Assembly (NCBI RefSeq): GCF_000003815.2
Contig: NC_049991.1
Coordinates: 17,976,647-18,040,646, forward strand
Direction: 5' to 3'
Length of the DNA: 64,000 nucleotides
DNA from: Branchiostoma floridae
Lineage: Eukaryota > Chordata > Leptocardii > Amphioxiformes > Branchiostomatidae
How positions within the stretch are numbered: the first letter of the stretch is position 1; the number at the start of each line of letters is the position of its first letter. This document shows, one piece after another, positions 2,160 through 22,046 of the stretch. Made by a program: the position numbers and the translations under genes. The notes beneath the pieces were generated by a model. The model was not told the origin of the DNA. It saw only the letters and a list, made by a program, of their open reading frames with translations, and did not search any database.

Positions 2160-2382
2160 CTAGAGTTTCTCGTTGACTACTGTGCTGTACGCTGGTGGTG
2201 GCGGCAGATCGCTGGTACCAGCCGAGTACTGCGTGTTGTAGTTGTCCGAGGTGTTGTAGGTAAAGCCGTACTGAGGTGGGGGTGCTGGTCCCGAGGGCGG
2301 TGGTGCCGAGGGCGCAGGACCGAATCCCCCGGCCGCCGCTGGTCCTGGGTAGGGTTGGGATCCAGGGTACGGCTGCCCCGCA
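2160..2382 (-). CDS. Shared 3' terminal coding exon (constant exon): Pro/Tyr-rich cytoplasmic tail with PPPAY motif
   Basis: Terminal coding exon with a good acceptor (TCTCCTCTTACAG, then TGCGGGG) and a TAG stop at 2160-2162. It opens with the last base of a split codon, so it accepts phase-2 donors. It encodes 73 residues: repeats of the type QPYPG, an Ala/Gly/Pro-rich middle, several Tyr, then PPPPAY and the end STVVNEKL. PPxY motifs bind WW domains (NEDD4-type ligases, adaptor proteins), so a trafficking or ubiquitin role is plausible for the joined protein. That is inference from the motif only. The exon has no start of its own. It is the only such tail found downstream of the V exons, all of whose usable donors are phase 2. 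The junction codon becomes AGT (Ser) after AG donors and ACT (Thr) after V8, so no stop is made. The family itself is not recognised. Confidence 0.75.
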
Positions 2383-3712
2383 CTGTAAGAGGAGAATTCA
2401 GTGTCATTATCTTGACGGATAACTTCATTAGAGGAACAAACGCACGATAAAGATAAAGGTAACATCAGTCCCATAGCCATCTTTAAGGCTAAGGTCACAT
2501 TTCCAAACCGGGGCCCGGCCGGACAGCTTTTGGAAGCGAAAGGAATGACATAAAAGACATCAAAATACACAAAATGTGAAAATACGATTCATGGGCATGA
2601 TATGTGCATATTTCTAGATATACATTTTAATTTTTCGTTTCTTAAAACATCCCTGCCGGGCCCCGGTTTTGAAATGTGTCGACCTTAGCCTAAGGCCGTA
2701 AGGGCAGTGGGTTGTTATACATTGTGTCTAGGTATTGGAAGGCTGAACCCAAAGCTCTCCTCCCACCGCTGTTAACATCATCAACCGCGACGTCAGGCAC
2801 CTAATTGCACACCTATAGGGAGAAGAGTCATGCGGGATGTCAAGTGCCTTTCAAGCTTACGTCATAGTGTCATGAGCTTGAATGATAACTTCACTAGACG
2901 ACCAGACGTATTGAACCCTCGGGAATAGTACTGTGAAGATAAAATGAATCGGTTAATGGTCATCTCCATCTGTCCGGTTAAGGGCTGGAACCCTGAAAGG
3001 GTGGGGGGGGGGGGTGGCTTATTGTCAACAACTTTTTCAAATAAGTATTCTAAATGGAAATGGTCTATCTAAGCACGGAGATCACAAATGATAGGCAAGT
3101 ATTGAGAAGTACACACGCACGCACGCATACGTCAACTTCGTCATTATAAAAAAAGTAAGGTGATCTCGCCATGAATACTACACATGACCCCGGCTTAATA
3201 TGTACATATTCTACAAGAGTTTTACGAAATATCCTGTTCCCTGTCCACAATTTCTATAAATACCCCTCCCCCCTCAGTGTACCCAGAGTGCAGCGCGCGA
3301 CAGTTCATCCGTGACCTTGCCGACATTTTGTTCTTCTTTCGCCATTACGTACGTGTACAACTTAACAACTTCCCAAGAAAACTTTCTAACGTTACTAACA
3401 AAGAACTCAAACTTGACACACGTAATGGACATACATAGAAGAACACTTCGCTGAACATTGTAACTGTAAATGTACTGCACTTGGCTTGATGATAATCATT
3501 TCTAATCCGTTAACGTTAGTCAGATAAAAAAAGGTTAAAACCTTCTTGGTCAGACGAAGACATGCTATTTTTCAGTGAACGAAAACTACTTGCTGCTTTG
3601 TTTTCGTATGACAAAAGTGAAACTTTGGAAAGCCCTTAAAATGTAGGTAGCTAATCTTCCTGGACGTACAAACTGCCATTATAGGATTTCATGATATATT
3701 TTGCCGTGATAC
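2383..3712 (-). other. Intron between constant exon and V1
   Basis: This is the last intron of the V-exon locus. Apart from the MITE it holds a poly-G run near 3004 and a block around 3278-3335 that reappears at about 6713-6772 (shared stretch GTGACCTTGCCGACATTTTG). That repeat shows the locus grew by duplication including flanks. No further exon was seen. Confidence 0.55.
2487..2690. mobile_element. MITE with TAA target duplication (PIF/Harbinger-like)
   Basis: A 204-bp element bounded by inverted repeats that begin GGCTAAGGTC and continue through a GGGCCCGG-containing arm. It is flanked on both sides by TAA, as expected of the 3-bp TWA duplications of PIF/Harbinger transposons. It has no coding capacity. 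It lies in the intron just upstream of the constant exon. Half-copies of a similar arm occur near 23460 and 26420. Confidence 0.75.
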
Positions 3713-4215
3713 CTTGGGTAAGAAAAGTCAGCCATCGGCTGTCCCGGTATCGTTCCACCGAATGCCGTAGGATCGGGAGCCGTGGGCTGTGCGCCCTGTG
3801 GGGGCTGGGGAAGGGTCCCTGCTGCTTGCTCAGGCTGGGAAGTAACTGCCTCCTGTCCGGCCGGACTAGTCGCCGCCTCCTTCGCCGCCCTGCGTTTACC
3901 GCGGGCGCACAAGAACACCCCCGCCACAAGCAGTGCTCCTCCAATGCCGAACATCATCAAAGGCATTAAACTGACGTCTGCCAGTAGGACAATCACGGGG
4001 ATTCCTGACAGTATTATGAATACCGCATGAATAAGGAAGCATACGCCCAGGGTAGTGTATGACCGCGCAGCGCCCGGTCCCGAGAAACTGAGCGGAACCC
4101 CGCCGCCACCGCCACCCCTTCGGCGACCACCACGGCGTTGAAAGTGATGATGATGATGTCGGGCGCGGCGGCCTGCTCGGCCTGCCCGGCCTCCCCTTCT
4201 CTCTCCTTTACCCAT
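3713..4215 (-). CDS. Variable first exon V1: basic N-terminus plus two-helix membrane hairpin
   Basis: Exon of 167 codons plus 2 bases, from ATG at 4215 (good context, CAAGATGG) to the donor CCAAG|GTATCA, phase 2. An upstream in-frame ATG at 4227 would add four residues; the MGKGERR start shared by the paralogs was preferred. Residues 1-50 are Arg/Gly-rich with a run of five His. Membrane segments lie at about 57-79 and 84-103, followed by a Cys and a basic patch (CARGKRR). The basic N-terminus predicts N- and C-termini in the cytosol. The tail is Ala/Gln/Pro-rich and ends SYP before the junction. Without splicing the frame runs only ten codons into the intron. V2 and V3 are its closest relatives. 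Function unknown. Confidence 0.78.
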
Positions 4216-5486
4216 CTTGGCATGCACAGAACTTAAGTTAAGACACGGTGACCGACTAATAGCAGCGCCTTACACCTCTTCACAAAGCCGCGTTTCAAAG
4301 TTTGAAACGCAGGTGTACTTCAAAACGCCTCAAGGAAAAAAACAACCTACAGGCCGCCATTATACCTTCGTGACACACACTGCGTTTACCTGGCGACGAG
4401 GATTGCTCATGTGTCCACAGGAACAATAGTGGCAGATCGGGTTACAACTGAGCTAAAAGAAACCTATCCGTTTGCTCCAATCCTTTTGATTACTTAAATC
4501 TACGGCAATTGTGTAAGAAGAAGACGTAAAGTAGCTTAAGGAGTTGACAACAGTCGTCGACAACATTTCTGTGGTCCGTTGTAACTAGAAATGTGTAAAA
4601 TAGCGTGAACCTTTCACTACACGAAAGAAGTCACCTGTAACTGACCACAACATGGCTGTCAGCGTATTCAGCACATGTGACAGGTAAACAAAGGTGCGGT
4701 ATATAAAGACAAGAAGACCACGTGAGAACGGGCGTGTCGTCTGTGAACACTGTCGGCTTACATAGAACGGGGTACCGTTACAAATGTTGAACTATTGACC
4801 GCGATTGACGTCAACTTTCGAGAGGGATACACATAGACGCAAAAAAACATCTGATCATAAATACAACTAACACCAGAGATACATGCCTCCACTACAAGAT
4901 ATAGTCCCTTTCTTATAAGAAGATTATTTTGACAGGTAGAAGATAGCTATAAGGCCTTACTCAAGTTAGTCTAGGAAGGCATTTATGATGTGCATAAAGT
5001 CAACATAGAGGCCATGACTGTACCCAAAGTGCAATGCACTGTCCCCAAGTCGTCATGAAATACATCAGATTCTACAAATATATATATAACTTAAAAGCAG
5101 TGCAAGCTTTCATACTATGAACGAATGACACGAAAAAAAAAATGAAACTCTCCACTTCTATACCATAACCAACTCTCTGGTCAGGGGAAGTGTGCTTATG
5201 ATTACTGAGAGAAGCATACGCAGGACAATTGCTATGTTGCTTTGTATTGCTGCTGCAGTGTTTTAGGGTAAGGTTGAAGCATTCTTTGCATCGTCCTTGT
5301 TTACCTTGGTCAGAAGGTCATGTTTTGGATAGTGTTCGTATGTGTCTGTCTGTGTGTGTTTTAACACGACAACTCGTAAAGGCCTGAACGAAGTGCCTTG
5401 ATATTTGTTATATGAGTAGGTCTTGATGGCACCTAAAAAGTATTAGATTTTAGACCCCCTAGCTACAACACAATACGCTGTAATAC
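4216..5486. other. V1 5' flank / V2 downstream intron
   Basis: Non-coding spacer. A block at about 4651-4708 (CATGGCTGTCA... ending in GTGCGGTATA) recurs upstream of V2 at about 6381-6435, so the 5' flank was duplicated with the exon. The TATA-like string in it reads on the plus strand, the wrong way for these exons. No other gene was seen. Confidence 0.5.
4415..4459 (-). promoter_or_regulatory. Conserved block upstream of V1
   Basis: About 45 bp, roughly 200 bp upstream of the V1 ATG. On the plus strand it runs CCACAGGAACAATAG, then GATCGGGTTACA and CTAAAAG. The same block stands upstream of V2 and V3 amid less conserved sequence. It could be a shared promoter element of each first exon, or simply a recent duplicate. 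Confidence 0.35.
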
Positions 5487-6025
5487 CTCGGATACGAAAG
5501 TCCTGACATAGCCATCGGCTGTCCTGGCATTGCTCCACTGAAGTACATGGGATCGGGAGCCGTCGGCTGTGCGGGTTGGAGAAACACCCCTGCCGTTTGC
5601 GGAGGCCCTGTGGGTCCCACTGTCCCAGTAGTGTCCTGTGTGGTCGGATTTGTAGCCGCCGCCTCCGCCGACTTGCGTTTGGCGCGAGCACACATGAACA
5701 TGGCCGCCACAAACAGTGCACCTCCGATGCCGATCATGATCAGCGGGTAGTAATTTCCTGAGTCAAAGCCCGAGAATATAACAGTCATGGGGATTCCGGA
5801 GAATAGCAGAAATAAGGAGATCATGAACAGGCTGATGCCGGCGGAATAGTATCTCGCTCCAGCGCCCTGCGACCCCGAGAAGTTGAGCGTAATCCCCCGG
5901 CCACCTCCACCACCTCGACGACGGTTCAAGCCACCACCAAGACGGCGGCGCTGTTGAAAGTGATTATGATGATGTCGAGCGCGGCCTGCTCTGGCTCGGC
6001 CACCCCTTCTCTCTCCTTTCCCCAT
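5487..6025 (-). CDS. Variable first exon V2: two-helix membrane hairpin
   Basis: Exon of 179 codons plus 2 bases, from ATG at 6025 (GCCAAGATGG) to the donor CCGAG|GTATTA, phase 2. The N-terminus is MGKGERRGGR followed by His/Asn and Gly/Arg-rich sequence. Membrane segments lie at about 62-85 (ending SGIPMTVIF) and 93-112, followed by MCARAKRK. The Cys next to the basic patch is a possible acylation site. The tail is Thr/Pro-rich and ends LSYP like V1. An unspliced transcript would stop only nine codons after the donor. The product is predicted to be joined to the 73-residue constant tail. Function unknown. Confidence 0.78.
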
Positions 6026-7115
6026 CTTGGCACAGAACTTAAGACACGGTGATCGACTGCTAGCAGTGCCTCACAGCTCCTCACAAAGCTCTGAAACGCA
6101 GCCGGACTTCACAAGGTCCAAGGAAAAACTACAGGCCGCCATTTTACCTACATGTACGTGACTCACACTGCGTTTACCTGGCGACGCGACCACAGGAACA
6201 ATAGTGGCCGATCGGGTTACAGCTGGGATAAAGGGAATCTAGCACGGAATGCTCCAATATGTTTAACTTCTTAGGTTTACAACAATTGTGTAAAGAAGCG
6301 TAAGAAGTTGTATAGTAGTCAACATGATACCTGTAGCTAACAAAATGCGTGAATATTAAAATTGCATGTAACAGACCACAACATGGCTGTCACCGTATTC
6401 ATTACACGTGACAGGTAAACAACTGTGCGGTATAAAAACAACCTGACAAGAAGACCATGTGACAGCTTATAAAGAATGGGGCACCGTTACAACTGTTGAA
6501 CTGTTGACCGTGCTTTCGGCAAGGTTTTGGAGACTTACACGCAAAAGCTTTAATTCGTCACGAGATGATCTGACCATAGATACAACTGTGACACTGGCGA
6601 TATAAGACTCCGTTTAAGAGATGTCCTCCTTGTTGCCATCAGTTAATCTGAAAGCTTTTAGGAGTCATTTGAGATATGTGATTGCTGTGCGTAATGTCTA
6701 CATAGAGGTTATGATTGTACCCAGAGTGCAACGCGCGTCAGTGAATCCGTGACCTTGCCGACATTTTGGACCCAAGTTGCCATTGAGATCATTTACGACT
6801 TTTAAAAGAACTGCCAAGCAAGCGTTATTCTTAAAAAAAATACTTCTAGATCTGCTATAAAGAACCTGGGATACGTGTTGGAAATACATGAAAGAAAACG
6901 CTTTTAAACTCTCATCTCCGCTGTTAGACTGTAACTAATCCTCTGGTTAGGTGAAAGTGAATCTGTGCTATTTATGAGTGAAGCAAACAAGACAATTGCA
7001 TAGAGCTAATCATGACAATTGCTCTGCTGCTTTATAATAGTACTGCATTTTGGGGTATGGCTGAAGAATTTTTTATGGCCATTTTCATTACATGTATCAT
7101 TACATGCTGAAATAC
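6026..7115. other. V2 5' flank / V3 downstream intron
   Basis: Non-coding spacer. It carries a second copy of the flank duplicated at V1 (about 6381-6435) and the block at 6713-6772 that matches 3278-3335. No gene seen. Confidence 0.5.
6190..6235 (-). promoter_or_regulatory. Conserved block upstream of V2
   Basis: Counterpart of the block at 4415-4459, here CCACAGGAACAATAG... GATCGGGTTACAGCTGGG, about 170-210 bp upstream of the V2 ATG. Confidence 0.35.
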
Positions 7116-7618
7116 CTTGGTTGGGAAATGCCGGACGTGTCCATCGACTGCCCCGGCATTGTGTCACCGTGGGGCATAGCATCGGAAGCCGGTGTTTCTG
7201 TAGGTTGGAGAGACGTCCCTGTCGTTTGATGAGTCCCTGAGTCCCGTTCGACTGCGTTAGTGTTGGCTTCCGCCGCGGTCGGGTTAGTCGCCGCCGCCGC
7301 TGCCTTGCGCTTGGCGCTAGCGCACATGAACACCGCCAACGCCATCAACACTCCTCCGGCGGCGACCATTATCAAATGGTAGTACGAGTTGAAGTTCGTG
7401 GAGAAAACGACGGTGAGAGTGATTCCCGCGATCGTCAGGAATGACGCGAACGCGAACAGCCATATGCCGAAGACATAATGTCCCGTTCTAGAGCCCCGCG
7501 CCATGCCGATGGTACGGTGCAGGTAGGACCCTTGGGGACGATGGCGGCGGTGCTGGTGATGGTGCACGCGGCGACCGCCTGCCCTGGCCCGGCCGCCTCG
7601 TCTCTCACCCTTCCCCAT
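7116..7618 (-). CDS. Variable first exon V3: two-helix membrane hairpin
   Basis: Exon of 167 codons plus 2 bases, from ATG at 7618 to the donor CCAAG|GTATTT, phase 2. It begins MGKGERRGGRARAGG, then a His/Arg stretch. Membrane segments lie at about 49-72, with the signature GITLTVVF that recurs across the cluster, and at 81-100, followed by MCASAKRK. The tail is Ala/Thr-rich and ends ISQP at the junction. Codon use is GC-rich against an AT-rich flank, which supports coding. It groups with V1 and V2. Confidence 0.78.
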
Positions 7619-7954
7619 CTCGGCACAGAACGGACACAGTCACCTACGTCTGAATGCTAGCCCAATACTAGTACTCCTCTGTGGTCTGCTGCTGCAATGG
7701 CATGGACACTCTGCAGCTGCAATCAGTCGATCTTCAACTCTCTCCACTGTGTCTTGTTCTTGTTCATCGCGAGCTTCCTTAGCTCCCGTGTTGTAGTATT
7801 CTTTCTGACCGCAACGATCCTGGTCCAATGTCTTTCAGGTCTGCCCCCAGTAGGCTCGGTGTCTCACTATCTCATTGAACAACCGCGTTTACAAGTCTAC
7901 ATTACCTGTATGCATGTGCCATACTCTGTGTTTACCAGTTGAACTTGGTTGCGT

Positions 7955-7999
7955 CCACAAAACCAACAATGCCTGATCGGGTGTCAGCTGGGATAAAAG
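7955..7999 (-). promoter_or_regulatory. Conserved block upstream of V3
   Basis: Third copy of the block (CCACAAAACCAACAATG... TCAGCTGGGATAAAAG), about 340-380 bp upstream of the V3 ATG. It is more diverged than the V1 and V2 copies, yet the core GATCGGGT...CAGCTGGGATAAA is kept. Confidence 0.35.
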
Positions 8000-8047
8000 A
8001 GGCCTTGCAGTACATTGCTTAAAATCTCTTTGCCCCCTTGTTCAAAG

Positions 8048-8171
8048 TACTGTAAATGCAATGGCATCCATTTAAGTTTGCGGGGACTTATTTTCGCGGT
8101 AGCGGGAAAATGGAGTGTTTGCGGTGGTTTTGAGCGAAGCGAACACCGCGAAAGTTTCTGCATTTACAGCA
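8048..8171. mobile_element. Short MITE with TACTGTAAATGC ends
   Basis: 124-bp element with inverted ends (TACTGTAAATGC and its near complement) and internal CGCGGT/ACCGCG inverted motifs. A longer relative lies at 17209-17430. Superfamily not assigned. Confidence 0.55.
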
Positions 8172-9050
8172 CAAAAAATATTGCAAGCTTAAGGCGTCGT
8201 GAATAGTTAGAAACTTCCGTGTCGCATTGTAGCTGAGAAAAAGCACGGACCTTTTACTTTGTAAAAGAAGTGACAGCCGAGTACGACACCGAATACTGCC
8301 GTATCACAAAAACGGGATACCGTTACAACGGTCGAGCTATTGACAGTGCCTTTGGCAACGTTAATTAGACATGGACACAAAGGAAGCACTACGTCACATT
8401 TGTGTGGGGTCAAAGGTTACAGACCTTTGACCCGTCCGACATTCAAAAGGAGAGCAAGATTATAACGACTAAAAACCACAAATAGACTGAAGTAATGGTG
8501 ACAGCACATAAGCCTCCTTGAACTGTTACTTATGAGATATTTGCTGTTGTTGTCCTCAGACCATTTAGGTGATAACTGAAGGTTTAGAAGGACAATACAA
8601 CAAGGTTTGATCACTTAAGTTAGAACATGACGGGGTTGTGTAACAGGTGTCAATATCTCCATATGCAGAGGGTAAATGTTGGCGAAGCTTGCTGCATGTA
8701 GATTAGTCATCCCAAAACAACAGCAGGTAATTCTTTAGTTATTTTAATCGTTTATCACAGATTTTATGACCCTTACGACAATGAATAGTTGTTAAAGTTA
8801 AAATAATTAATGGCTTTGGGCATCACGTCTTTTTGGACAAAATATATCTGTTTACAAAATATAGACATATGTATAATAATAGAGCTGAGTGTTAGCTTGA
8901 CATTCCCTCTGTGACGGTATGATCTATTCTGAAGCAGGACTTAGCTCCGAATTTTAGAAAAATGAAAAGTTTGACCTATCTATTTTCGACTTAACAGTTA
9001 AGTGTGTTTAACACTTAACAGGGGATATCAAAAATGGACATGGTCTGTAC

Positions 9051-9619
9051 CTGAAGTCGGGATATGGAGGGGGTTGCTGGAAGCCTGGGTCCGGAAGCGA
9101 CTGTTGCAGTCCCCCGACAGATAGGGTTTGCATGGCGGTTCCCTCTACCTGCGGAACCCCCTCCTCCACTTGTTGCACCTGTGGCGTGGCGTCGTTGTTT
9201 TGTGCGCCGTTCCCAGCCTTACACCGGAGACCCCACGCCACCAGAATCTGTAGGATCCCGAAAGCCAGCATGGCGTAACCAAAGTAGGGGAGAACGCCAC
9301 CCGATCCTCTGTACATCACCGTCAGGATGATACCAGGAATCAGACAGAAGATTCCAAACGCGACAAGACGTGACTGTATCTGCGACCGTGCCGACTGATT
9401 TCTTGCAAAGACGACGTTGGAAACGCCCGTCGACGCCCCTTCCCCCGTACGGCAACTAGAACTAGAACTAGAACTAGAACTAGAACTAGAACTAGAACTA
9501 GAACGACCCTGGCGGTGTCTCCGTCGGTTGTTGTTGCGGCGGTGGTGCTGGACTCGGATTCTCCTGCGGCGACCCGCGGCCCGGCGACCCGCTCTACCCC
9601 TCGCCTCACCCTTACCCAT
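9051..9619 (-). CDS. Variable first exon V4: membrane hairpin with poly-Ser run
   Basis: Exon of 189 codons plus 2 bases, from ATG at 9619 to a near-perfect donor TTCAG|GTACAG, phase 2. The N-terminus MGKGEARGRAGRR is strongly basic. Residues 40-55 are 16 Ser encoded by eight TTCTAG hexamers. Membrane segments lie at about 85-103 (IPGIILTVMY) and 109-130. The cytoplasmic part contains TPQVQQVEEG-type sequence and a PPPY motif just before the junction (QQPPPYPDF), so this isoform would carry a PY motif in its own tail as well as the constant one. Sequence is intermediate between V1-V3 and the Gln-rich V5-V7. Confidence 0.77.
9456..9504. repeat. In-frame hexanucleotide microsatellite in V4
   Basis: Eight copies of CTAGAA (plus strand) plus one base. 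Read on the minus strand the unit gives Ser-Ser (TCT AGT). Length changes by whole units keep the reading frame. Confidence 0.9.
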
Positions 9620-10534
9620 GCGTGCGTAGACTTTGTCTGTGTATCACAAACTCCACTGTCCAGGGCCCCTGGCCCCTCCCGGTAATGTTGTTCGGGTCGC
9701 TATAAGCACTATGTAAATGTAATCAGGGTTTAACCGTAGCTTTACAAGCCTTTATGGCTGCTAACTTTCAGCAAATCACGAACAGGTAGTCTCAGTGCAC
9801 TTGTTGGAGTACCGATGACACACTGGCATATGCACCGATTGCACAATGTTAAGAACTGTCTATTCATTGATAGGCTGCAAATAGGTGTTTGCTAACCCGT
9901 CGTTCCGGTCCACAGGAGTTGGAATCCAGGGGGAAAACAAACAAGAACCTGCGTCACTGACCAGGACATGCTAGAGGTCAGAGGTCAATAATGGAGTGCC
10001 ATACTGAATAGACGATGATATACGAGTCCACATGACTGGTTTAAATAAATCGTTTTCAGCATTACTGCCTTAGTGAAATCTAATTTTTGCTGATTGTGTA
10101 CAGATTTTAAATTGGTGGTTATTAGCATAACTTATGGCCTAAGTTTAACGCTTGTTGAGCTTACGAATCAATTTCTGTGATTAAGATTTTATGGACAGAA
10201 GGAAGTCGCTTTCTTTACATTACCTCCTTGAAAAATAACATAACACATCCGAGTGTAAAGTGGAGAAGATATAACCCAAGTTACGCGTCCTCAAGACGAC
10301 ATATAAAAACGAAAAAGGCTATTGAAGCAAGAGATGCAACCTCTTAGATCAAGAAAGGACAAGGAAAAATCCACCTGTACCGTAAACATAATATAGACCT
10401 GTTTTTTTCACTCCGTTTGTATCCCGTTGTATGCAGATGTATTTATGTATGTATGTATGTAGAAGACCGTAAGAAAGTAGCGGTACCTTTGTAGTGCCAT
10501 TAAAGATTTTAAAGCATATGGCCATTTGCGTTAC
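9620..10534. other. V4 5' flank / V5 downstream intron
   Basis: Non-coding spacer. From about 10030 it begins a block (TTGTGTACAGATTTT, then GACAGAAGGAAG) that recurs near 11640-12060 and 13190-14215, that is, downstream of V6 and V7. No gene seen. Confidence 0.45.
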
Positions 10535-11202
10535 CTTTGCTGTCCTAGGTTTGACATCATCTCTTGATATTGGGGGCTGGACATTGCTTGTTGAAGCTGA
10601 GGGTTTTGCTGAGCGAGGTTTGCCATCATCTGTTGATACTGAGGATTGGCCATCATCTCTCGCTGTTGCTGTTGAACTTGAGGGTCTTGAATTTGCTGGA
10701 AGAGCGCAGACATCATCTGCTGAAGCTGAGGGTTTTGCTGCTGCTGCTGCAGGCCTACAACAGTCAGACCGTGCATGGTTGTGCCGTCCGACTGCACCGT
10801 CACTCCTCCAACCTGTTGCGCCTGGGTGGTGGGGTTGTTCCGGGCCTCTTCCCTGACCTTATGCGACAGCACGATCGACACCAGAAAGAGTAGACCCGCG
10901 AACCCGAGACAGCTGTACCCGATGATGGCCGGACCCTCCGGATCGCAGCAGAATAACGCTGTCAGGGTGATACCAGGGATGAGGAGTAAACAACTCATCA
11001 AACCGAGTCGTATCTGGATTCTTTGTGTCCGTGTGAGTGGTCCTGCTTCAACACCGAGACCGGGTGACGTCCCTCCCCAGGCGCGGTATCCAGAAAAAGG
11101 GTGGTGCCGTCCTGCTGTCCCACTCATCTCGCCTTTACTATTAACACGTTGAAACGCCTGGCAGCGGCAGTGGCATGGCTTACTGTGGAATCGACTTGCC
11201 AA
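10535..11202 (-). CDS. Variable first exon V5: Gln-rich tail, altered start
   Basis: Open exon up to the donor CAAAG|GTAACG, phase 2. The usual MGKGER start has changed: the matching position reads VNSKGEM. Translation would have to start upstream (ATG 11202) or at the Met in GEM (ATG 11127), giving a shorter, less basic N-terminus. Numbering from 11202, membrane segments lie at about 68-88 (LLIPGITLTALF) and 93-115. The tail holds GVTVQSDGTTMHGLTVVG and then about 85 residues of Gln-rich repeats (NPQLQQMMS, DPQVQQQQREMM). Unspliced reading stops immediately after the donor. V7 is nearly identical downstream of the start. It may be functional with a new start or be early in decay. Confidence 0.65.
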
Positions 11203-12081
11203 TGTCAGTGTCGAAATAATCTTATGCTCAGTTCAACTTGCGCGGAACGCGCCGAATGTACCGACACCTTCGGTACTGCCTTCTATAGAATAGCTTTGCG
11301 TTCTATAGAACAGATACTTATAAAGGCGCGAGGCCACTGTAGGGCCAATGTAAGAAAAACGTCAGTACTAAAAGCAGCAAAGACATTCAGTTTTGAAGCG
11401 TCGATGTCCCAGAGTGCACACAATGACTATGTATATATCGTATATATCCATACTCATAGATGTGACAAACAAATGACAAATTGTCACCAACCGAGCGTTA
11501 TGGCATACAGGCTGCACCGTCAAAGTTAAACAAGACTCGACGTTACGTTAATGACCGTGGTAGGTCTGTATGTACGTAGGTAATTAACAGTAGACGAGTA
11601 GTTCAGAGAAATCAATTTTCAGTATTATTGCCTTGGTGAGATGAAATTTTTGCTGATTATGTACATTTCTTAACTTACTGGTCCTAAGCATATCTATTAT
11701 TCTTACCGCCAAAGTTTAGCGCTTGTTGAGCTTACAAGTCAAGGACTTTCTGGACAGAAGGAAGCCGTTTCCATAGAAAAATTTACATATCCGAGTGTTA
11801 ATTGGACAAGACACGAACCCAAAGATGTCCTCTTACGCGTCCGCAAGACGACATATTAAAACGACAGTGCCTATTGAAGCAGGGGGATGTAAGCTCGGAG
11901 TTAAAGAAAATACAAGAACAAAGAGAGTTGTACCGTAATCGTATATAGACCTGTCTTTCACTCCGTTTGTATCCGCTTGTTTGCATATGTATGTGTGTAT
12001 GTATGTAGAAGACCGTACGAAAGTCGCTGTTCCTTTGTTCTGTCAATAAAGATGATCAAGCATATGGCCATTTGCATTTAT
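11203..12081. other. V5 5' flank / V6 downstream intron
   Basis: Non-coding spacer duplicated almost whole at 12700-13249 plus 13813-14229. Shared marks are GTATATATCGTATATATCC (near 11440 and 12980) and AAACAAGACTCGACGTTACG. No gene seen. Confidence 0.5.
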
Positions 12082-12690
12082 CTTTGCTGTCCTAGGTTTG
12101 ACATCATCTCTTGATACTGGGGACTGGACATCATCTGCTGAAGTTGAGGGTTTTGCTGGGCGAGGTTTGCCATCATCTGTTGATATTGTGGGTTAGACAT
12201 CATCTGCTGAACTTGAGGGTTCGACATCATCTCTCGTTGTTGTTGCTGCATCCTCTGTTGAAATTGAGGGTCTTGCATTTGTTGGCTGAGCGCAGATAGC
12301 ATCCGTTGCTGGCCTACCACAGTCAGACCGTGCATGGTTGTGCCGTCCGACTGCACCGTCGGCCCTCCCACCTGTTGTGCCTGTGTGTGTGGGTTGTTCC
12401 GGGCCTCTTCCCTGACATTATATGACAGTGCGATCGTCACTAAAAAGAGGAAACCAGCGAAGCCGAGACAGCAGTACCCTGCAATGGTCAGACCCCCCGG
12501 TTCGCAGCAGAACATCGCTGTCAGGGGAGGAGTAGCATGAAGGTCAACAAACCGGCCAGTCTCTGGATTCTTTGTGTCCGCGTGAGCGGTCCTGCTTCAA
12601 CACCGAGACCGGGTGACGCCCCTCCCCAGCCGCGGTATCCAGAAAAAGGGTGGTGCCGTCCTGCTGTCACATACATCTCGCCTTTACTGT
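12082..12690 (-). pseudogene. Variable exon V6, decayed
   Basis: Clear copy of V5/V7 with three lesions. The donor is AAAG|AT instead of AAAG|GT. A deletion near 12525 (compared with V7 around 14660) removes codons of the first membrane segment and shifts the frame. The MGKGER start is changed as in V5 and no ATG is in frame. The open part (12078-12515) still reads the second membrane segment and Gln-rich repeats, including DPQFQQRMQQQQREMM. No shared tail can be joined through the normal site. Probably a dead exon. Confidence 0.75.
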
Positions 12691-14229
12691 TCACCCGTTG
12701 ATACGCCTGGCAGCGGTAGTGGCATGGCTTACTGTGGGATCGGCTTGCCCATGTCAGTGTCGAAATAATATTATGCTCAGTTCAAATCACACGAAACGCG
12801 CCGAATGTACCGACACCTTCGGTACCGCCTTTTGTAGAATAGCTTTGCGTTCTATAGAACAGCTAATTATAAAGACGCGAGGCTTTAGGGCTACTGTAAG
12901 AAAATCGTCAGTACTAAAAGCAGGAAAGACATTCATTTTGAAGCGTCGATGTCACAGAGTGTACACAAGAAGGACTATGTATATATCGTATATATCCATA
13001 CTCATAGATGTGACAAACAAATGACAAATTGTCGCCAACCGAGCGTTATGGCATACAGGCTGCACCGTCAAAGTTAAACAAGACTCGACGTTACGTTAAT
13101 GACCGTGGTAGGTCTGTATGTACGTAATAGGTAATTAACAGTAGACGAGTAGTTCAGAGAAATCAATTTTCAGCATTATTGCCCTGGTGAGATGAAATTT
13201 TGCTGATTATGTACATTTCTTAACTTACTGGTCCTAAGCATATCTATTAGGCCCCGTTCATGATGCAAAAATTAATGCGGATGCATCCGCATGTGCGTCC
13301 ATCCGATCATGATCCGCATGCAAACGGTTTACAGTTTGTGTCCACGATGCCAACGGGCAATCCGTTTCAGATCCGCGTCAGGGAATTAGAACATTACGCA
13401 ACAACAGAACATTGCGAAAAAGATGGCGGATCCCCAGCTGTTCTTGTTAGTGTTTTTCCTGAAAATGCTGTGTGCCCGCGGAAGGGAACGTACGAGGCGG
13501 CAGCGACGAAAGGTTTTGTGCCTTGACCTGGCTGCCGCCAGATGCGGCCGCTAAAATTTCACAGTTTCCCGCGTCACGGCGCGAACTTTGACCCCACGTT
13601 ACCCGGATGTAATGCGGATTCACGCCTCATTTGCGTTCATGATGACAGTTCGCAAATGCGGATTTAAAAAAATCCGTTTCAAATCCACCTCCCGAGGTGG
13701 TCCCGAAAAATCCACATCAAATCCGTTTCGGAGCATTCATGATGAGAAATTTATCAGCATCGGCCAAAAATGCGGATCCATCCGCATTAATTTTTGCATC
13801 ATGAACGGGGCCTTATTCTTACCGCCAAAGTTTATCGTTTGTTGAGTTTACAAGTCAAGGTCAATAATTACGACTTTCTGGACAGAAGGAAGCCTTTTCC
13901 ATAGAAAAATTAACATATCCGAGTGTTAATTGGACAAGACACGAACCCAAAGTCGTTCTCTTACGCATCCGGAAGACGACACATTAAAACGACAGTGCCT
14001 ATTGAAGCAGGGGGATGTAAGCTCAGAAGAAAATACAAGAACATACAAGAACAAAGAAAATACAAGAACAAAGAGAATTGCACCGTAATCGTATATAGAC
14101 CTGTCTTTCACTCCGTTTGTATCCGCCTGTTTGCATATGTATGTATGTAATATGTAGAAGACATTGCGAAAGTCACTGTACTTTCGTTGTGTCAATAAAG
14201 ATCATTAAGCATATGGCCATTAGCATTAC
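12691..14229. other. V6 5' flank / V7 downstream intron
   Basis: Duplicate of 11203-12081, interrupted by the MITE at 13250-13812. No gene seen; reading frames at 13260-13526 and 13588-13845 lie inside the MITE. Confidence 0.55.
13250..13812. mobile_element. 563-bp MITE, PIF/Harbinger-like, TTA target duplication
   Basis: Inverted ends start GGCCCCGTTCATGATGCAAA and continue for at least 34 bp with internal GCGGATG repeats. TTA flanks both sides. The paralogous spacer near 11690 has the uninterrupted site with a single TTA, so the insertion and its 3-bp duplication can be read directly. No transposase is encoded. Confidence 0.9.
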
Positions 14230-14858
14230 CTTTGTTGCCCTAGGTTTGACATCATCTCTTGATATTGGGGGCTGGACATTGCTTGTTGAAGCTGAGGGTT
14301 TTGCTGAGCGAGGTTTGCCATCATCTGTTGATACTGAGGACTAGCCATCATCTCTCGCTGTTGCTGTTGAACTTGAGGGTCTTGCAATTGTTGAAAGAGC
14401 GCAGACATCATCTGTTGAAGCTGAGGGTTTTGTTGCTGCTGTTGCAGACCAAGAACAGTCAGACCGTGCATGGTTGTACCGTCCGACTGCACCGTCACCC
14501 CTCTCACCTGTTGTGCTTGAGTGGTGGTGGGGTTGTTCCGGGCCTCTTCCCTGACCTTATGCGACAGCACGATCGAGACCAGAAAGAGTAGACCCGAGAA
14601 GCCGAGACAGCAGTACCCGGCAATGGCCGGACCGTCCGGTTCGCAGCAGAACATCGCCGTCAGGGTGATACCAGGGATGAGTAGCATGAAGGTCAACAAA
14701 CCGACCTGTCTCTGGTTTCTCTGTGTCCGTGTTAGCGATCCTGCCCCGGCACGGAACGCGAGTGACGCCCCTCCTCCACCATGGTGCCTCCGATTGTGGT
14801 GGTGTCGTCCGCCAACACGGCGTCTTCCCGCTCTTCCCCGCCTCTCGCCTTTACCCAT
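14230..14858 (-). CDS. Variable first exon V7: membrane hairpin with Gln-rich repeat tail
   Basis: Exon of 209 codons plus 2 bases, from ATG at 14858 to the donor CAAAG|GTAATG, phase 2. It has the standard MGKGERRGRAGRR start, a His/Arg stretch, and membrane segments at about 52-71 (IPGITLTAMF) and 77-99. A linker with GVTVQSDGTTMHGLTVLG follows, then Gln-rich repeats from about residue 137 to the junction. The units read NPQLQQMMS, DPQVQQQQREMM, SPQYQQMMANLAQQ. They look like the Asn-Pro-Gln/Met-rich helices of STI1-type chaperone-binding repeats (as in ubiquilins), a resemblance by eye only. Best intact reference for the V5-V7 subgroup. Confidence 0.78.
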
Positions 14859-15832
14859 TCTTAAGACAAAGCTTTAGAGTCACCTTCAGCAAATCGCCAA
14901 CACTAGAAGCGGATTGAACACTTACGTTTGGAAGCGCCGGTGTCACAGAGTGCTACGAGAGCACACAATGAGGATTATGTATGTAGATGTATCCACGTGA
15001 CATAGAAAACAAACAGGTGTTGGTACGCCAGCCAAGCGTTACGGCCTACAGGACGTACTCAGGTTAAAAATAAACAAGCCCTACGTCACTCTCTGACAGG
15101 ATAGGATTATCTGCAAAGGGATATCACGGTAGTTGAAGGAAGAGGGGGAAGCAATGCTCGTTACAATATCTTGGACGTCAACATGCTGTAGAAAGCCCAC
15201 ACACCAACTTTTACATGTCACATTGTATTAGGGTTGCGACAGGGGCACGGAATTTGCGTGCCATTCCAGGGTGATAAACAGACAACCATCCATTACCAAA
15301 CAAAGCTATGCACGCTATGCTGTGTGTTGGTTAGTGTCATTGCTTAGATCATACTATTTTATGTTGAAGAAATAGTACACATGGGATTAGCTCTAATAAA
15401 CTCGTCAAACTTCTTCGAAGGGCGGGATGTAATAAAGCGTAAATACAAGCCCCGCCCATCCCATTACGTGTTGTCCAGGCCATTTGAAACTGTTTAAATC
15501 TTCACCAGGGTACGCAGAAAATCAAGTAAAAGTAATTTTGATTATGACTGCATTCCCTATTATGTTAATTACTTTTTCATTTTAGTATTTTACAGTGTAA
15601 ATTTTACAACTTATTATTTTCTCTGTATTATCTTAGATATAGTAGTACATTTGTAACTGTGGAAACATACTTTGACTTGATTTGAATTACTCGGCTGTAT
15701 AGAGAGAAATACAGCCAGGGATACCCAGCTAGCCGGAGGCTATTATCAAGGGCTAGCCTGGGTAACAATACAACAAAACAATATCTCTGTGTTTGGGGAG
15801 GTAACAAAGGAAAATACACCAGAGATACATAC
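14859..15832. other. V7 5' flank / V8 downstream intron
   Basis: Non-coding spacer. Its left end still resembles the V5/V6 flanks (AAGCGTCGATGTC-like sequence near 14930). The right end holds the repeat at 15693-15764. No gene seen. Confidence 0.45.
15693..15764. repeat. Short interspersed repeat, copy A
   Basis: About 72 bp containing GGCTGTATAGAGAGAAATAC and GGGCTAGCCTGGGTA. An inverted-orientation copy lies at 36419-36490 in NXPE gene 1, intron 4. Confidence 0.7.
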
Positions 15833-16425
15833 GTCATGTTTGACCAGTCGGTCGCAGCATTCCCGCCAGTTTGGTTAGACATGGCTGTCATCATGTTTGT
15901 CACCATGTCAATGACAGTTTGCCCGTCTTGGTTGACGGTTGTCGTGGTCACGGTCGCCGTCCCCGTGGCGTCGCTGATGACGGTAACCCCCGGCTGTCCC
16001 TGTGCTTGTGCACCGGCGGCGCGATTCTCTTTCCACTGCCGGTTACAGGACCACAAGCCGACCAGGAAAAGCAAAAATCCGACGCCTAGAACACATGCAC
16101 CCACAGCTACCACGCCGCTACCCGTGGAGGCGAATATAGCCGTAAGCATGATGCCGACTCCGATCATGAAAAATCCAAAGAAGCACAGACATATGCCGAG
16201 AACAGTTTTCTGGGGAGTCCCGGGCCCAATATGTATCGTCCCTCCGCCTCCACGTCTCGCCCCTCTACTGCGAAAGATATGTCCTCGGCGGGCTCGTGCG
16301 TGGTGGAGGTGCCCGATGTGATGCCGGTGGCCGGCACGGTGACGGTGGCCGGCAGCTCGGCGGTGCCCCCCGGCCCTTCGCCCGCCGGCCCTTCGCCCGC
16401 CGCCCCGCCTCTCACCTTTCCCCAT
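15833..16425 (-). CDS. Variable first exon V8: long basic N-terminus, membrane hairpin
   Basis: Exon of 197 codons plus 2 bases, from ATG at 16425 to the donor ATGAC|GTATGT, phase 2. Splicing gives Thr at the junction. Residues 1-65 are Arg/Gly/His/Ala-rich with repeated GHRH-type units. Membrane segments lie at about 74-98 (GIMLTAIF) and 104-126 (VAVGACVLGVGFLLFLVGLW), followed by SCNRQWK. The tail is Thr/Gln-rich (VTTTTVNQDGQTV) and lacks the long Gln repeats of V9 and V10. Without splicing the frame stays open for about 67 codons and would add unrelated hydrophobic sequence, so a splice at the donor is more likely. Confidence 0.73.
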
Positions 16426-17711
16426 CGGAAATCACTGATTGTTGTTGATGTTGTCAACGGTTGTAGTAGTCTGTAGTCCGTTGTAGCAACCACCTGTCGT
16501 GGGTGACAGCTCTTTACGACTCTTGAAGTCTTGTTTTAACTGCTCTGCTAAAGAAAGTCTCCAAGTTCCAGCTTTCGACACTCGAGCTCTCTCAACTTTT
16601 CGTTTAGCTGAGCATCACCTACACCAAGAGCCCTGTAATGCGTACTAATGGTTTACAAACGTCAACTCGTCTCTCCCCACCACTTGTTGATGGTTGTCGT
16701 GGGTCAGTGCCCTAATTAAAGGTATTGTCCTGGGATCCGGTGACGCCTCCTTATTAGATCCAAGTCAAACACTCCAACCTACTGCACATACGAGGCACTA
16801 CGAGGCAGAATACAAACTACGCTATATAGCAAATACAGGAAGTTTGGGAAGGTGTGGCCTGACCCAGAAAGGTCACAGAATCCCAGAATGGTATCGCACC
16901 GGAGTTTTGCCTAGCTCCTGTCAGCCACGGTGCCGTCTGTGTAGGATCTATGGTACTAAATGTTGCTTGATGTGTACTTAAAATATGTTTAGTTTCTCAG
17001 CAGACAGAATAATCGCAAATTCAGCCGATAGATGAAAACCGGAATCTAATGAATGAAGACCTTTCTTGCACATTTTTGCCCCACTTGGCTAATAATGAAG
17101 ATGCCATGATGATGACTTCTGCAAAGTAATGGGTCTCAGCGAATGGTTACCAGATATCTTGTGACTGACTGGCCAAGAGTCAATTGTTCAAAGCCGTCAA
17201 CCCAGGAATACTGTAAATGCAGACACTTTTGCGGTGTTTTGATATTCACGGTTTTGGCAGCAGTGGCCGCTTTATCGCGAACTTAAAACCACCGTGAATA
17301 TTTTTCCATGGCAGTAAGAGACTACAGTGTATGGTGCTACCGCGAAATTAAAACCGCCGCGAAAAGTCCTTTTCCCGCTACCGCGAAAAATAAATCCCCG
17401 CGAACTTAAATGCTAAACCCATTTACAGTATGCGTTGCACGGGTATAGTTTTACATACAACTCAGTAAGATGCGTTGTTGATAATACGTATAAGGGCAAT
17501 CATTCGTGGTTGTATACAAGGTATATGACAAGCAAGTGACAATGATAATAGATAAGATCAATAATACACATAAAATGACATACTCTTTCTGTGCTTAGAT
17601 CTATATTCTATCTACCAATTTTCATACGAATACCTGTGACACATACTGTCATACCATTCTGATTTAGTCTGCCCCTCCCTTTATCATCATTAAAATAGGT
17701 ATGATCCATAC
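16426..17711. other. V8 5' flank / V9 downstream intron
   Basis: Non-coding spacer. The part 16500-16960 is repeated upstream of V9 at about 18600-18980 (shared GATCCAAGTCAAACACTC, GTGTGGCCTGACCCAGA). A MITE lies at 17209-17430. No gene seen. Confidence 0.5.
17209..17430. mobile_element. MITE with TACTGTAAATGC ends, longer copy
   Basis: 222-bp relative of the element at 8048-8171. It has inverted ends TACTGTAAATGC and CATTTACAGTA and several CGCGAA/TTCGCG motifs inside. No coding capacity. Confidence 0.55.
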
Positions 17712-18529
17712 CTTTGCTGACCCATGCTTGACATCATCTGTTGAAATTGAGGGTTTTGCTCGGCGAGGTTTGACATCAACTCTTGGTATTGTGGGTTAGA
17801 CATCATCGCTTGTTGTTGTTGTTGCATCATCTGTTGAAATTGCGGGTTGGACATCATCTCTTCCTGTTGTTGGCTTAGCGTCTGTTGGAATTGAGGGTCT
17901 TGCATTTGCTGAGCCTGGCTAGACCACATCTGTTGAAACTGAGGGTCTTGCATCATCTCTCGCTGTTGTTGTTGAACTTGAGGGTCCTGCATTTGCTGGA
18001 AGAGCGCAGACATCATCTGTTGAAGCTGAGGGTTTTGTTGCTGCTGTACGCCGACTACAGTCAGACCGTGCATGGTTGTACCGTCCGGCTGCACCGTCAC
18101 CCCTCCCATCTGTTGTTGCGTGCTGCTGACAGTTTGACCATCTTGGTTGAAGGTTGTCGTGGTCACGGTTGCTGTGTCTGTGGCGTCAAATCCCGGCTGC
18201 TGTCCCTGTGTATTGGCGGCGGAACGATCCTTATTCCGCTGTCGGTAACAGCAGCACAAGCCGGCCAGGAAAAGCAGAAACCCGACGACTAGTAAACAGG
18301 CACCCACAGCTACCACGGCGCCACCCGTGGAGGCAAATATAGCGGTGAGCTTGATGCCGATTATGATCATTACAACTCCAGAGATGGACAGACTAATGGC
18401 AATGCCAGTTTTCTTGGAAGTCCCGCGGCCGGGCCCGATACGGTAGCGGACAGCTCTGCGGTGCCCCCCGGCCCGGGCCCTTCGTCCCCCGGCCCTTCGA
18501 CCGCCGCCCAGCCTCACACCCTTCCTCAT
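17712..18529 (-). CDS. Variable first exon V9: membrane hairpin with longest Gln-rich repeat tail
   Basis: Exon of 272 codons plus 2 bases, from ATG at 18529 (MRKGVRLGGGRR, a variant of MGKGERR) to the donor CAAAG|GTATGG, phase 2. Membrane segments lie at about 42-66 (GIKLTAIF) and 70-93, followed by LCCCYRQR, three adjacent Cys next to a basic patch. A linker combines the V8-type VTTTTFNQDGQTV with the V7-type GVTVQPDGTTMHGLTVVG. The exon therefore looks like a recombinant of the two subgroups. From about residue 140 come some ten Gln/Met repeats (DPQFQQMW, DPQFQQTL, NPQFQQMM, NPQYQELM). Unspliced reading ends seven codons after the donor. Confidence 0.77.
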
Positions 18530-20022
18530 CGTGAACCACCGATCGTTGTTGTTGTAGTCTAGTAGTTGGTTGGAGCAACCACTTGTCGTGGCCGTGGGTG
18601 ACAGTTCTTCACAACTCTTTAACTCTTAAAGCTTGTTTAAACCGCTCTGCTAATCCAAACTGTTTCTTTCCAAACTCCCTATCTGTTCGTTGACCCGAAC
18701 AACACCTTCACTTTAGCCTCGTAATGGTCTACAAACGTCAACTGGCGTCTCCCCGCCAGTTGTTGATAGTTGCCGTGGTTCAAATCCTTAAAGGTACTGT
18801 CCTGGGGTCCAGTGATGCCTCATTATGAGATCCAAGTCAAACACTCAAATCTATACTTCACAGAAAGGACATACGAGGCACTACGACACAGAGTACAAGT
18901 ACGCCGCAGATATAATCAAACAGGAAGCTCGGATAGGTGTGGCCTGACCCAGAGAGGTCATAAAAGCCCAGAGTAGTCACGCAACCAGGGTTTTGTCTCG
19001 CGCCTACTAACTACGATTGTTGCCGTGTCAATTTGATTTTTTTGCTGAATTATTAACGCAAATCTCAGGCGATTGATAAAAACCGGGATTTAACAAAATA
19101 TCTTACATGCGTCAAGGTCATATCATGGAAAACAGTGTAATAGTAGAAGTTCCTCATTATTCATTCCAATTAACTGTCAATTTGCATAAATTGCATCTCA
19201 TTGTCGATGTCTTTGTTTAAGCTACAAGTATACCGATTATTTTTGAAACCCTTTGTTTCTTTATTAGGTTATCCTCCTTGAAAGGATCATTCTAAACAGC
19301 CCTGCAGTTCCAGACCGAGCTGCTAGGAGGCCGAAAACTACATTTTCTTCTTCATTACATCACAAGCTATTTGTCACCTGAAAAGCAGAACCATAGCATG
19401 TCCAGGTCAAAAGATACTGCTGCAGTGCCAAGATCAAACACCAGGGGCCCCCTAAAGTTACCTCGACCTTTGTCTTCCCAACATTTATCTACATACGAAG
19501 TATAATTACAATCCATCCAGAGGTTCTAAAGTTATGCTGACCACAAATATCCGGACACACAACCACACAGACAGACAGACAGTCACACCAAAAACTATTC
19601 CTCTATTTTTCATGGAGGTAATGAAGATGGTGATGACTGTCTCACAGCAAAAGGGTCAGGGAATAGTCCTTTACCTATCATGAGACTGACTGGCCAGAAA
19701 GAGTCATTTCAAAGCCGAATCCATTAGAGATATGCATTCAACGGATATCATTTTATAGCTATTTTGTATGAATTATAATGCTACATTTAAGATGCGTTGT
19801 TGACGCGACATTAAGGCCGATTATTTGCGTCAGCTATGTTTAATATTTACGCAAACCGGTGAACATTGCGTAAATAGTTTACAATATAAAACGACAAGCA
19901 AATGACAAGAATCATTATTATACATGTACACAAAATGACACACTCACCCTGTGCTTAAATATTCTATCAATTTTCATACGAATACCACTGATTTCATGAT
20001 GTACATTATAGTAGGTCCATAC
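18530..20022. other. V9 5' flank / V10 downstream intron
   Basis: Non-coding spacer holding the duplicate of the V8 flank and an interspersed repeat at 19266-19622. No gene seen. Confidence 0.5.
19266..19622. repeat. Interspersed repeat, copy A
   Basis: It contains CCCTGCAGTTC, ATCCATCCAGAGGTTCT and an AGACAGACAGACAG run. A diverged copy in the same order lies at about 38950-39290. Possibly a SINE or MITE; class not assigned. Confidence 0.5.
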
Positions 20023-20639
20023 CTTTGCTGGCAAATGCTTGACATCATCTGCTGAAATTGAGGATTTTGCTGGGCGAGGTTGGATATGGTCTGTTGAAAT
20101 TGAGGGTTAGACATCATCGCTTGTTGTTGTTGCCGTATCATCTGTTGAAATTGTGGGTTGGACATTATCTCTTGTTGTTGCTGGCGTAGCGTCTGTTGGA
20201 ATTGAGGGTCTTGCATTTGCTGTGCCAGTTCGGACCACATTTGTTGAAACTGTGGGTCTTGCATCATCTGTTGTTGCACGCTGGCAGTTTGCCCATCTTG
20301 GTTGATGGTTGTCGTCGCTGTCCCCGTTGTGTCAATCCCCGGTTGTTCGCGTGCCGCATTGGTGGTGGAGCGCTTGGCATTCTGCTGTCGTTTACACAGC
20401 CAAACGCCTGCTCCTAAAAGCGCAGCCCCGACGCCTAGAACACAGGCACCGACAGCTACCACTCCGCTACCCGTGGTGGCAAACATAGCTGTGAGCATGA
20501 TGCCGATTATGATCATTAAAAATCCAAAGAATGGCAGACAAAATCGAGGATCAGTCTTTCTAGGAGCCATTCCTGTGTGTCTCCCGGTCCTTCGTACATG
20601 TACGCCGCCTCCCCACCGAGCACCTCTAGATCTCTCCAT
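20023..20639 (-). CDS. Variable first exon V10: short N-terminus, membrane hairpin, Gln-rich tail
   Basis: Exon of 205 codons plus 2 bases, from ATG at 20639 (MERSRGARWGGG) to the donor CAAAG|GTATGG, phase 2. The basic N-terminus is only about 30 residues. Membrane segments lie at about 32-54 (GIMLTAMF) and 59-82 (VAVGACVLGVGAALLGAGVW), then LCKRQQ. The linker has TTTINQDGQTA. The Gln repeats (DPQFQQMWSELAQQM, NPQFQQMI, NPQFQQTI) match V9 closely. Unspliced reading adds 15 residues before a stop. Confidence 0.76.
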
Positions 20640-21530: not shown

Positions 21531-22046
21531 TTATTGTGCGTTATCCTCATTTGTTGATACTGAAGGTCTTGCACTTGTTGATACTGAAGGTCTTGCATTT
21601 TTTGCGCCAGACTGTACCTCGCTTGTTGAAATTGAGGATTTTGCCACAGAAGCTTGCTTTTTCTGCTTTTGTTCCTGCATGGTGGTTACAGTATGTTGAC
21701 GTTTGGATGTTGTGGTCAATGGCGTTGTCACTGTCGCTGTAGCTTCGCTGATGACGTCACCGTATGGCTGTCCCTGGGACTGTTCACCAGCGGCACAGTC
21801 GTCCTTCTGCTGTCGGTTACACGACCACAAACTGCCTCCCAAAAGCAACGCCCCGACACCTAGAACACAGGCGCCCACAGCTACCACTCCGCTACCCGAG
21901 CTCGAAGCAACAAACACAGCGGTGATGCCGGCTCCGATCATGAAAAACGCCACGAAGGCCAGACGTATGCCAGCAATGGTCTTGTAATAGTTCGGCCGTC
22001 CCTCCCATCGGCGGTGAGTCCCACCCCACCTCTTCCCTTTCCCCAT
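21531..22046 (-). pseudogene. Variable exon V11, frameshifted in the Gln-rich tail
   Basis: Starts normally (MGKGKRWGG at 22046) and keeps both membrane segments (GITAVFVAS; VAVGACVLGVGALLLGGSLW) and SCNRQQK. After MQEQKQKKQ the open frame reads Ser/Thr-rich sequence. The neighbouring frame reads the family repeat (QNPQFQQ, MQDLQYQQVQDLQYQQM), so a small indel lies near 21660. The open frame ends in TAA without a phase-2 donor; the only good donor-like site in the tail, GCGAG|GTACAG, is phase 0. Either a dead exon or a truncated, tail-less protein of about 171 residues. Confidence 0.62.

Follow-up and report, generated by a model that had tools for sequence, protein, structure and literature searches.

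A Candidate Variable-First-Exon Locus Encoding Membrane-Hairpin Proteins with One Constant Exon in Branchiostoma floridae

Layout of the Locus

The window analyzed here, a stretch of 64,000 nt from the amphioxus Branchiostoma floridae that forms part of contig NC_049991.1 (C13 among the 431 contigs of the 513-Mb genome that we searched), carries on its minus strand, between 2160 and 27364, thirteen copies of an exon encoding a predicted membrane hairpin (V1–V13) and a single terminal exon (C). Nine of the thirteen copies (V1–V5 and V7–V10), all in tandem and in one orientation, are frames that run from an ATG to a GT donor in phase 2, whereas V6, V11, V12, and V13 have no in-frame donor. We consider it probable, from the sequence features described below, that the locus forms a single gene in which nine or more alternative first coding exons share one constant exon. 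An earlier note on this DNA had proposed this organization for the nine donor-bearing exons, and their donors have the positions and sequences that it gave, their frames contain no stop before the donor, and a single phase-2 terminal exon follows all nine; to the family we add the four copies that have no in-frame donor. The elements of the locus are listed below with their role in the proposed gene (a slash marks the splice boundary, and the lower coordinate of each donor-bearing exon is its last exon base).

2160..2382, minus strand: C, candidate terminal (constant) exon common to the V exons; acceptor in phase 2, TCCTCTTACAG/TGCGGGG; 74 aa with PSAP, PPQY, and PPAY; stop TAG
3713..4215, minus strand: V1, candidate first coding exon; donor CCAAG/GTATCA
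5487..6025, minus strand: V2, candidate first coding exon; donor CCGAG/GTATTA
7116..7618, minus strand: V3, candidate first coding exon; donor CCAAG/GTATTT
9051..9619, minus strand: V4, candidate first coding exon; donor TTCAG/GTACAG; with a PPPY motif of its own and a poly-Ser stretch
10535..11127, minus strand: V5, candidate first coding exon; donor CAAAG/GTAACG; start taken at the next in-frame ATG, 11127
12082..c.12690 (start approximate), minus strand: V6, broken copy; 10 nt deleted from the hairpin; AT in the position of the donor GT
14230..14858, minus strand: V7, candidate first coding exon; donor CAAAG/GTAATG
15833..16425, minus strand: V8, candidate first coding exon; donor ATGAC/GTATGT; without the Q-rich repeat tail
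17712..18529, minus strand: V9, candidate first coding exon; donor CAAAG/GTATGG; mosaic of V8/V10-like, V7-like, and V10-like stretches
20023..20639, minus strand: V10, candidate first coding exon; donor CAAAG/GTATGG
21531..22046, minus strand: V11, hairpin open reading frame (ORF) with its own stop; by eye no in-frame phase-2 donor
24007..24456, minus strand: V12, hairpin ORF closed by a stop of its own; past the stop a donor relic, CAGCAAAG/GTCAGC, last exon-like base 23991
26921..27364, minus strand: V13, hairpin ORF closed by a stop of its own

The MGKGE start is no longer present in V5, in which the first ATG in frame opens the sequence MSGTAG. The poly-serine run of V4 is encoded by a TCTAGT repeat at about 9454–9504.

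Donor Sites and the Edge of Coding Constraint

When the nine donors are aligned, A at −2 and GTA at +1 to +3 are invariant in all nine, a result that is strongest for the seven exons other than V4 and V8, in which the choice of GT was made partly by eye, and G at −1 is present in eight of the nine. By comparison, third codon positions are invariant in only 2 of 89 aligned codon columns. If phases were independent, agreement of nine donors in one phase would have a chance of 1/3^8; because the V copies are paralogs, the invariance of the donor columns is the better test. Splicing to C would create the junction codon AG+T (Ser) or, from V8, AC+T (Thr).

Paralog comparisons place an edge of conservation near the same point. 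The last 90 exon nt are 0.66–0.83 identical in V1/V2, V2/V3, V1/V3, and V9/V10, and the first ten nt of the putative intron match at 7–9 of 10 positions, whereas nt 11–100 are 0.61–0.62 identical, which in these four of the five pairs is the level of shuffled sequence (means 0.58–0.60, 95th percentiles 0.62–0.64). The fifth and recent pair, V5/V7, falls from 0.98 in the last 90 exon nt to 0.77 in nt 11–100. The region of strong constraint thus ends at the donor or within ten bases of it.

Upstream of this edge, pairwise omega (NG86, with 95% bootstrap intervals) for donor-bearing copies is 0.29 (0.19–0.44) for V5/V7, 0.41 (0.29–0.60) for V9/V10, 0.44 (0.29–0.65) for V1/V2, 0.45 (0.29–0.67) for V2/V3, 0.53 (0.34–0.78) for V8/V10, and 0.65 (0.43–0.97) for V8/V9. 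Among donorless copies, V12/V13 at 0.89 (0.54–1.52) and V11/V13 at 0.77 (0.48–1.25) are not distinguishable from 1. These values suggest relaxed constraint in the copies that have no donor, and suggest it only, because the ranges of the two classes overlap.

The Constant Exon

C opens after TTACAG in the phase that matches the V donors, so that the first residue of its 74-aa translation is split across the junction, and it ends in LPPPPAYSTVVNEKL followed by the stop. Searched against the genome, the translation matches a single place at an E value of 0.001 or less, which is C itself (seven candidates scored), and a tblastn search of the window found no paralog of C, the next match (E value 0.007) being of low complexity. 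The translation contains PPQY at position 36 and PPAY at position 63, as well as PSAP, and C is credible as a terminal exon because of these motifs and its single position downstream of the array. Farther along the same strand, the roughly 12 kb past C contain no other in-phase PPxY candidate with an acceptor score of at least 1.

Immediately upstream of the C acceptor, the segment 2400–2442 has an 81% similar copy at 2866–2908, about 470 nt farther upstream. An acceptor-like site at 2812 (score 5.0) comes after this copy and might open an alternative end of 28 aa.

5′ Flanks of the V Exons

The 450 nt upstream of the ATG are 0.72 identical between V1 and V2 and 0.75 identical between V8 and V9 (shuffled 95th percentile 0.62, 40 shuffles), and over the 450 nt that follow the donor identity is 0.59 for V1/V2, 0.59 for V8/V9, 0.60 for V2/V3, and 0.65 for V9/V10. 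BLASTN detects short conserved blocks upstream of V1–V3, V8–V10, and V6/V7, for example, 6510–6465 with 4801–4756 (E value 4e-9) and 21388–21273 with 16927–16816 (E value 1.5e-8). TATA-like strings lie upstream of 6 of the 13 copies, with no match for V3, V4, V7, V9, V11, V12, and V13. In a comparison allowing one mismatch and run with no control, 10-mers common to the upstream regions reached at most 6 of the 13 regions and reflected only subgroup homology. A scan of the 250 nt upstream of each of the nine ATGs found no consistent acceptor. The part of the earlier proposal that gave each V exon its own promoter is supported only indirectly, by the conserved 5′ flanks of some pairs and by the lack of a consistent acceptor upstream of the ATGs.

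The same scan bears on a different arrangement, in which one distal promoter and an upstream noncoding exon would serve the whole array and the V exons would be mutually exclusive second exons, as in Dscam1. Acceptor-like sites do occur within 250 nt of the ATG, with scores of 3.8 for V2 and 3.6 for V5 against 3.5 for the acceptor of C itself; however, V9 and V10 have nothing above −1.6, and the nine best sites fall within background (mean 2.1, standard deviation [SD] 2.3 per 250 nt). The 450-nt 5′ flanks of V1/V2 and V8/V9 are, moreover, conserved as promoters would be. We give this arrangement very little credence, the least of the three alternatives that we considered.

Evidence against Splicing of V to C and Alternative Readings

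A number of observations weigh against a gene in which the V exons are spliced to C, and several of them concern the donors. In the ungapped alignment from −30 to +40, exon columns −19 and −7 are also invariant (no others are, beyond the donor), and V4 and V8 show no strong homology at their donors. G at +5 occurs only in V8, V9, and V10, which leaves six of the nine donors without it, and V8 has C at −1. Donor log-odds are low in V1 (−0.2), V2 (−1.1), V4 (0.3), and V8 (0.3), and 8–15% of the GTs in the window match or beat such values. Patches of homology reappear downstream of the donors (19991–19893 with 17639–17527 and 7074–7011 with 5287–5221), and a 53-nt block at 6716–6768 and 3278–3330 is a further one. 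All nine V frames meet an in-frame stop past the donor, which is immediate in V5 and V7 (AGGTAA); an open run into the donor is, therefore, not by itself proof of splicing, and unspliced products would be proteins too. In the 5′ flanks, V2/V3 and V9/V10 are 0.62 identical over 450 nt, barely over the shuffled 0.61, and V9/V10 are more alike downstream of the donor (0.65, shuffled 0.62) than upstream, so that this pair lacks the asymmetry between upstream and downstream flanks. Among the donorless copies, the hairpin frames of V11–V13 are still open, and omega for V11/V12 is 0.65 (0.43–0.97), which is below 1 and overlaps the donor-bearing pairs. As for C, 30 of 200 shuffles contained a phase-2 ORF of 74 aa or more preceded by an acceptor that scored as well; we therefore rejected ORF length as evidence, and the coding status of C rests on composition and motifs, not on length.

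The stops and the weak donors would be accommodated if each V exon, with the possible exception of V1, were an intronless gene in its own right, terminated by the in-frame stop beyond the donor, with C belonging to V1 alone. Such an array would resemble the Pcdh-beta cluster, the members of which are single-exon genes in the available text of PMC7811963. This possibility draws on the stop that every V frame meets, including AGGTAA in V5 and V7 and AGATAA, which V6 keeps, on the weak donors of most exons, on RY and an aromatic or His residue that V1–V3 have in common just past the donor, and on V11–V13, which really end at their own stops. Against it stands the GTA that is invariant after the exon in all nine copies, in contrast to the rapid divergence of the sequence that follows and the differing distances to the stop, and donor loss accompanies a broken frame in V6 and an omega not distinguishable from 1 in V12/V13. 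Neither AATAAA nor ATTAAA occurs within 1,500 nt past the ends of V2, V5, V7, V8, and V9 (five of the nine); this point is weak because C itself has only one such signal, 857 nt on, and we rejected poly(A) signals as evidence. Taking both sides together, we judge separate intronless genes to be unlikely.

We also considered that the locus might consist of tandem two-exon genes, each V exon having a private, diverged 3′ exon before the next V exon. To count as a candidate for such an exon, an AG in one of the ten inter-exon intervals had to be in phase, to score 1 or more as an acceptor, and to be followed by an ORF of 20 aa or longer. Twenty-five candidates were found, C included (24 with narrower interval edges), and three sets recur (13998/11870, 12913/11367, and 6330/4447). 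This count exceeds that in shuffled sequence (17.4, SD 4.3), which is another point against C as the common end, but by just 1.8 SD. No candidate resembles C, except for the one at 2526, which is the frame of C itself extended upstream. The recurring candidates 13998/11870 and 12913/11367 sit in the recently duplicated V5–V7 units, and 6330/4447 lies in the common 5′ flank of V2 and V1. When the recurring stretches, together with one further stretch of the V1/V2 5′ flank, were compared by codon, three of the four comparisons gave no synonymous excess (pS 0.03–0.09, pN 0.09–0.13), and the fourth (20 codons, pS 0.43, pN 0.17) crosses a stop in both copies. The intervals, of about 0.86–1.55 kb, also house the 5′ flank of the next exon. 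Private 3′ exons are, in our assessment, very improbable.

Alternative first exons joined to C remain the best fit to the sequence and have survived the sequence tests applied here.

Evolution of the Array

Sequence relationships among the copies fit an origin of the subgroups V1–V3, V5–V7, and V8–V13 by repeated local duplication. V9 is composite: its first seven 90-nt windows match V8 best in six cases and V10 in one, exon nt 421–570 are 89–94% identical to V7 (two windows), and the windows from nt 601 are 86–88% identical to V10, suggesting exchange between members of the array.

A genome search with part of V7 gave ten matches at an E value of 1 or less, all ten of them in the V cluster, and a search with V1 gave eight, five in the cluster and three outside it with E values of 0.065–0.16, one of them interrupted by a single stop and the other two by two stops each. 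Because the query from V7 missed V1, V8, and V11–V13, distant relatives elsewhere could escape such searches.

Between exons of the array there is also a repeated noncoding block:

3278..3330, minus strand: 53-nt noncoding block between V1 and C; 92% identical to 6716–6768
6716..6768, minus strand: other copy of the 53-nt block, in the interval from V3 to V2; shorter match at 5019–5033

A genome search with 106 nt around the block returned those two places only. The block is 92% conserved in intervals next to V1 and V3, the proteins of which are only 40% alike.

Encoded Proteins

Each V exon product has a basic N-terminus, the hairpin, and a variable tail, which consists of helical Q/NP-rich repeats in V5, V7, V9, and V10 and is Pro-rich in V1–V3. 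By a hydropathy scan, each donor-bearing exon encodes between one and three segments with values above 1.4. In a structure model of V9 (mean pLDDT 68, 12-row alignment), helices span residues 39–65 and 72–108, and seven further helices cover 167–271; going by this model and the alignment, the hydrophobic segments of the V exons are predicted to form a two-helix membrane hairpin.

The proteins could not be placed in a known family by the searches that we made. No Pfam model scored above its cut-off for 12 V exons and C. No STI1/ubiquilin-type repeat was recognized, although the Q/NP-rich tails come close to the STI1-HOP_DP model, the best score being 22.4 bits against a cut-off of 29.1 (E value 1.2e-4, V10 tail), and a Foldseek search with the V9 model gave no match at an E value of 0.001 or less (best 0.28), with no STI1 entry among the best 50 of 193 matches. 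The TMEM100 model of Pfam likewise stayed below its cut-off of 34 (V9 20.9 bits, V10 15.2 bits). At an E value of 0.1 or less, there was no cadherin match in the 12 V exons and no UDP-glycosyltransferase match in the 12 V exons and C. A sequence search of PDB produced weak matches only, the best with E values of 0.029 and 0.071.

PY motifs bind the WW domains of Nedd4/Rsp5 ligases, and the PSAP motif of ARRDC1 recruits TSG101, as set out in the available portion of PMC9105457. C, with its PSAP and two PPxY motifs, resembles these PY-motif adaptors of Nedd4/Rsp5 and ARRDC1 (PMC9105457, same portion); in contrast to ARRDC1, there is no Pfam arrestin match and no detected homology, and binding is read from the motifs alone. 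The proteins are most likely membrane adaptors whose constant end would bind WW-domain (Nedd4-type) ligases and perhaps TSG101, as predicted from these motifs.

Comparison with Known Loci

The constant part of UGT1 encodes the C-terminal domain. The V-C locus shares with the vertebrate UGT1 and GCNT2 clusters the organization into multiple variable first exons, for which birth-and-death evolution of the variable exons is described in the text available from PMC1885805. Those clusters encode enzymes, whereas the V-C locus is without a UDP-glycosyltransferase domain. In the same portion of their paper, Li and Wu treat the Ugt1, Gcnt2, and Ugt2a organizations as vertebrate-specific (PMC1885805).

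The Pcdh alpha and gamma clusters have tandem variable first exons that include the membrane span, have their own promoters, and are spliced to a downstream constant set encoding a common cytoplasmic tail (PMC7811963, part of text). The likeness is in tandem variable first exons that carry the membrane part and lead to one downstream constant tail, which at the amphioxus locus is read from the sequence. The differences are that the V exons have no cadherin match, that there is one constant exon rather than the three of Pcdh, that the membrane part is a two-pass hairpin, and that the locus spans about 18 kb compared with nearly 1 Mb for the three Pcdh clusters (PMC7811963, part of text). V11–V13 may parallel the Pcdh-beta genes, which are single-exon and have no constant exons.

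Among invertebrates, the chelicerate sDscam genes have tandem 5′ cassettes with alternative promoters and a constant exon, and downstream cassettes can also be joined, according to the accessible part of PMC4835542. They are similar to the V-C locus in the arrangement of tandem 5′ cassettes and a constant exon in an invertebrate (PMC4835542, same part); however, the sDscam cassettes are multi-exon and encode Ig domains, and the protein is unrelated.

The earlier statement that no locus of this kind had been described is, therefore, too strong for the mechanism, given UGT1, GCNT2, PCDH, and sDscam. It holds for the proteins insofar as we found no description of this protein family, of the locus, or of an amphioxus variable-first-exon cluster among the titles and abstract openings listed by searches of the open-access literature, subscription journals being mostly outside the search. 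The V-C locus is probably a known kind of organization in an unplaced protein family, and a new member of that kind.

Neighboring Features

Between V7 and V6, an insertion with inverted ends (GGCCCCGTTCATGATGCAAAAATTAATGCGGAT...), noted by eye at 13250–13810, is probably the remnant of a DNA transposon. A minus-strand ORF of 434 aa at 50573–51877 also encodes a membrane hairpin and ends in a phase-2 donor-like site, CAGACAG/GTAAAATAA; we considered it as a fourteenth V exon because of its hairpin and this site (CAGACAG/GTAAAA) and rejected it, as the rest did not align clearly, and its last part has matches with weak E values to scattered places on other contigs. Just outside the start of the window, beyond C and on the same strand, a two-helix membrane-like stretch (GRSWVILIFFILLGGMMLLLG...CPKCLTACTC) lies near 9631 of the minus strand of L026. 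On the plus strand at 34413–50001, ORFs are repeated in tandem, which we take to resemble a tandem NXPE-type (neurexophilin/PC-esterase) family. The window includes a run of 100 unknown bases at 49110–49209.

Proposed Mechanism and Implications

In the proposed gene, each V exon would have its own upstream regulatory region and begin translation. The V exon nearest the cap would be spliced in phase 2 to C, the intervening V exons being skipped, and C would add one constant tail with PSAP and two PPxY motifs. The membrane and repeat parts would, in this way, be swappable and one end would stay constant.

A broader proposition, which we advance tentatively and doubt more than we believe, is that promoter choice of the protocadherin kind arose in an invertebrate chordate independently of vertebrates, in a locus for interchangeable two-pass membrane proteins with a common ligase- and ESCRT-recruiting tail, by which cells would choose the cargo-side parts and keep the degradation or budding output constant. 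V6 and V11–V13 show members without an in-frame donor, and V9 shows exchange of modules between members. If the reading is true, the range of variable-first-exon loci would come to include a cephalochordate and a class of small membrane proteins, and the locus would offer a compact natural system (about 18 kb) for promoter choice, for donors that skip downstream copies, and for gain and loss within an array.

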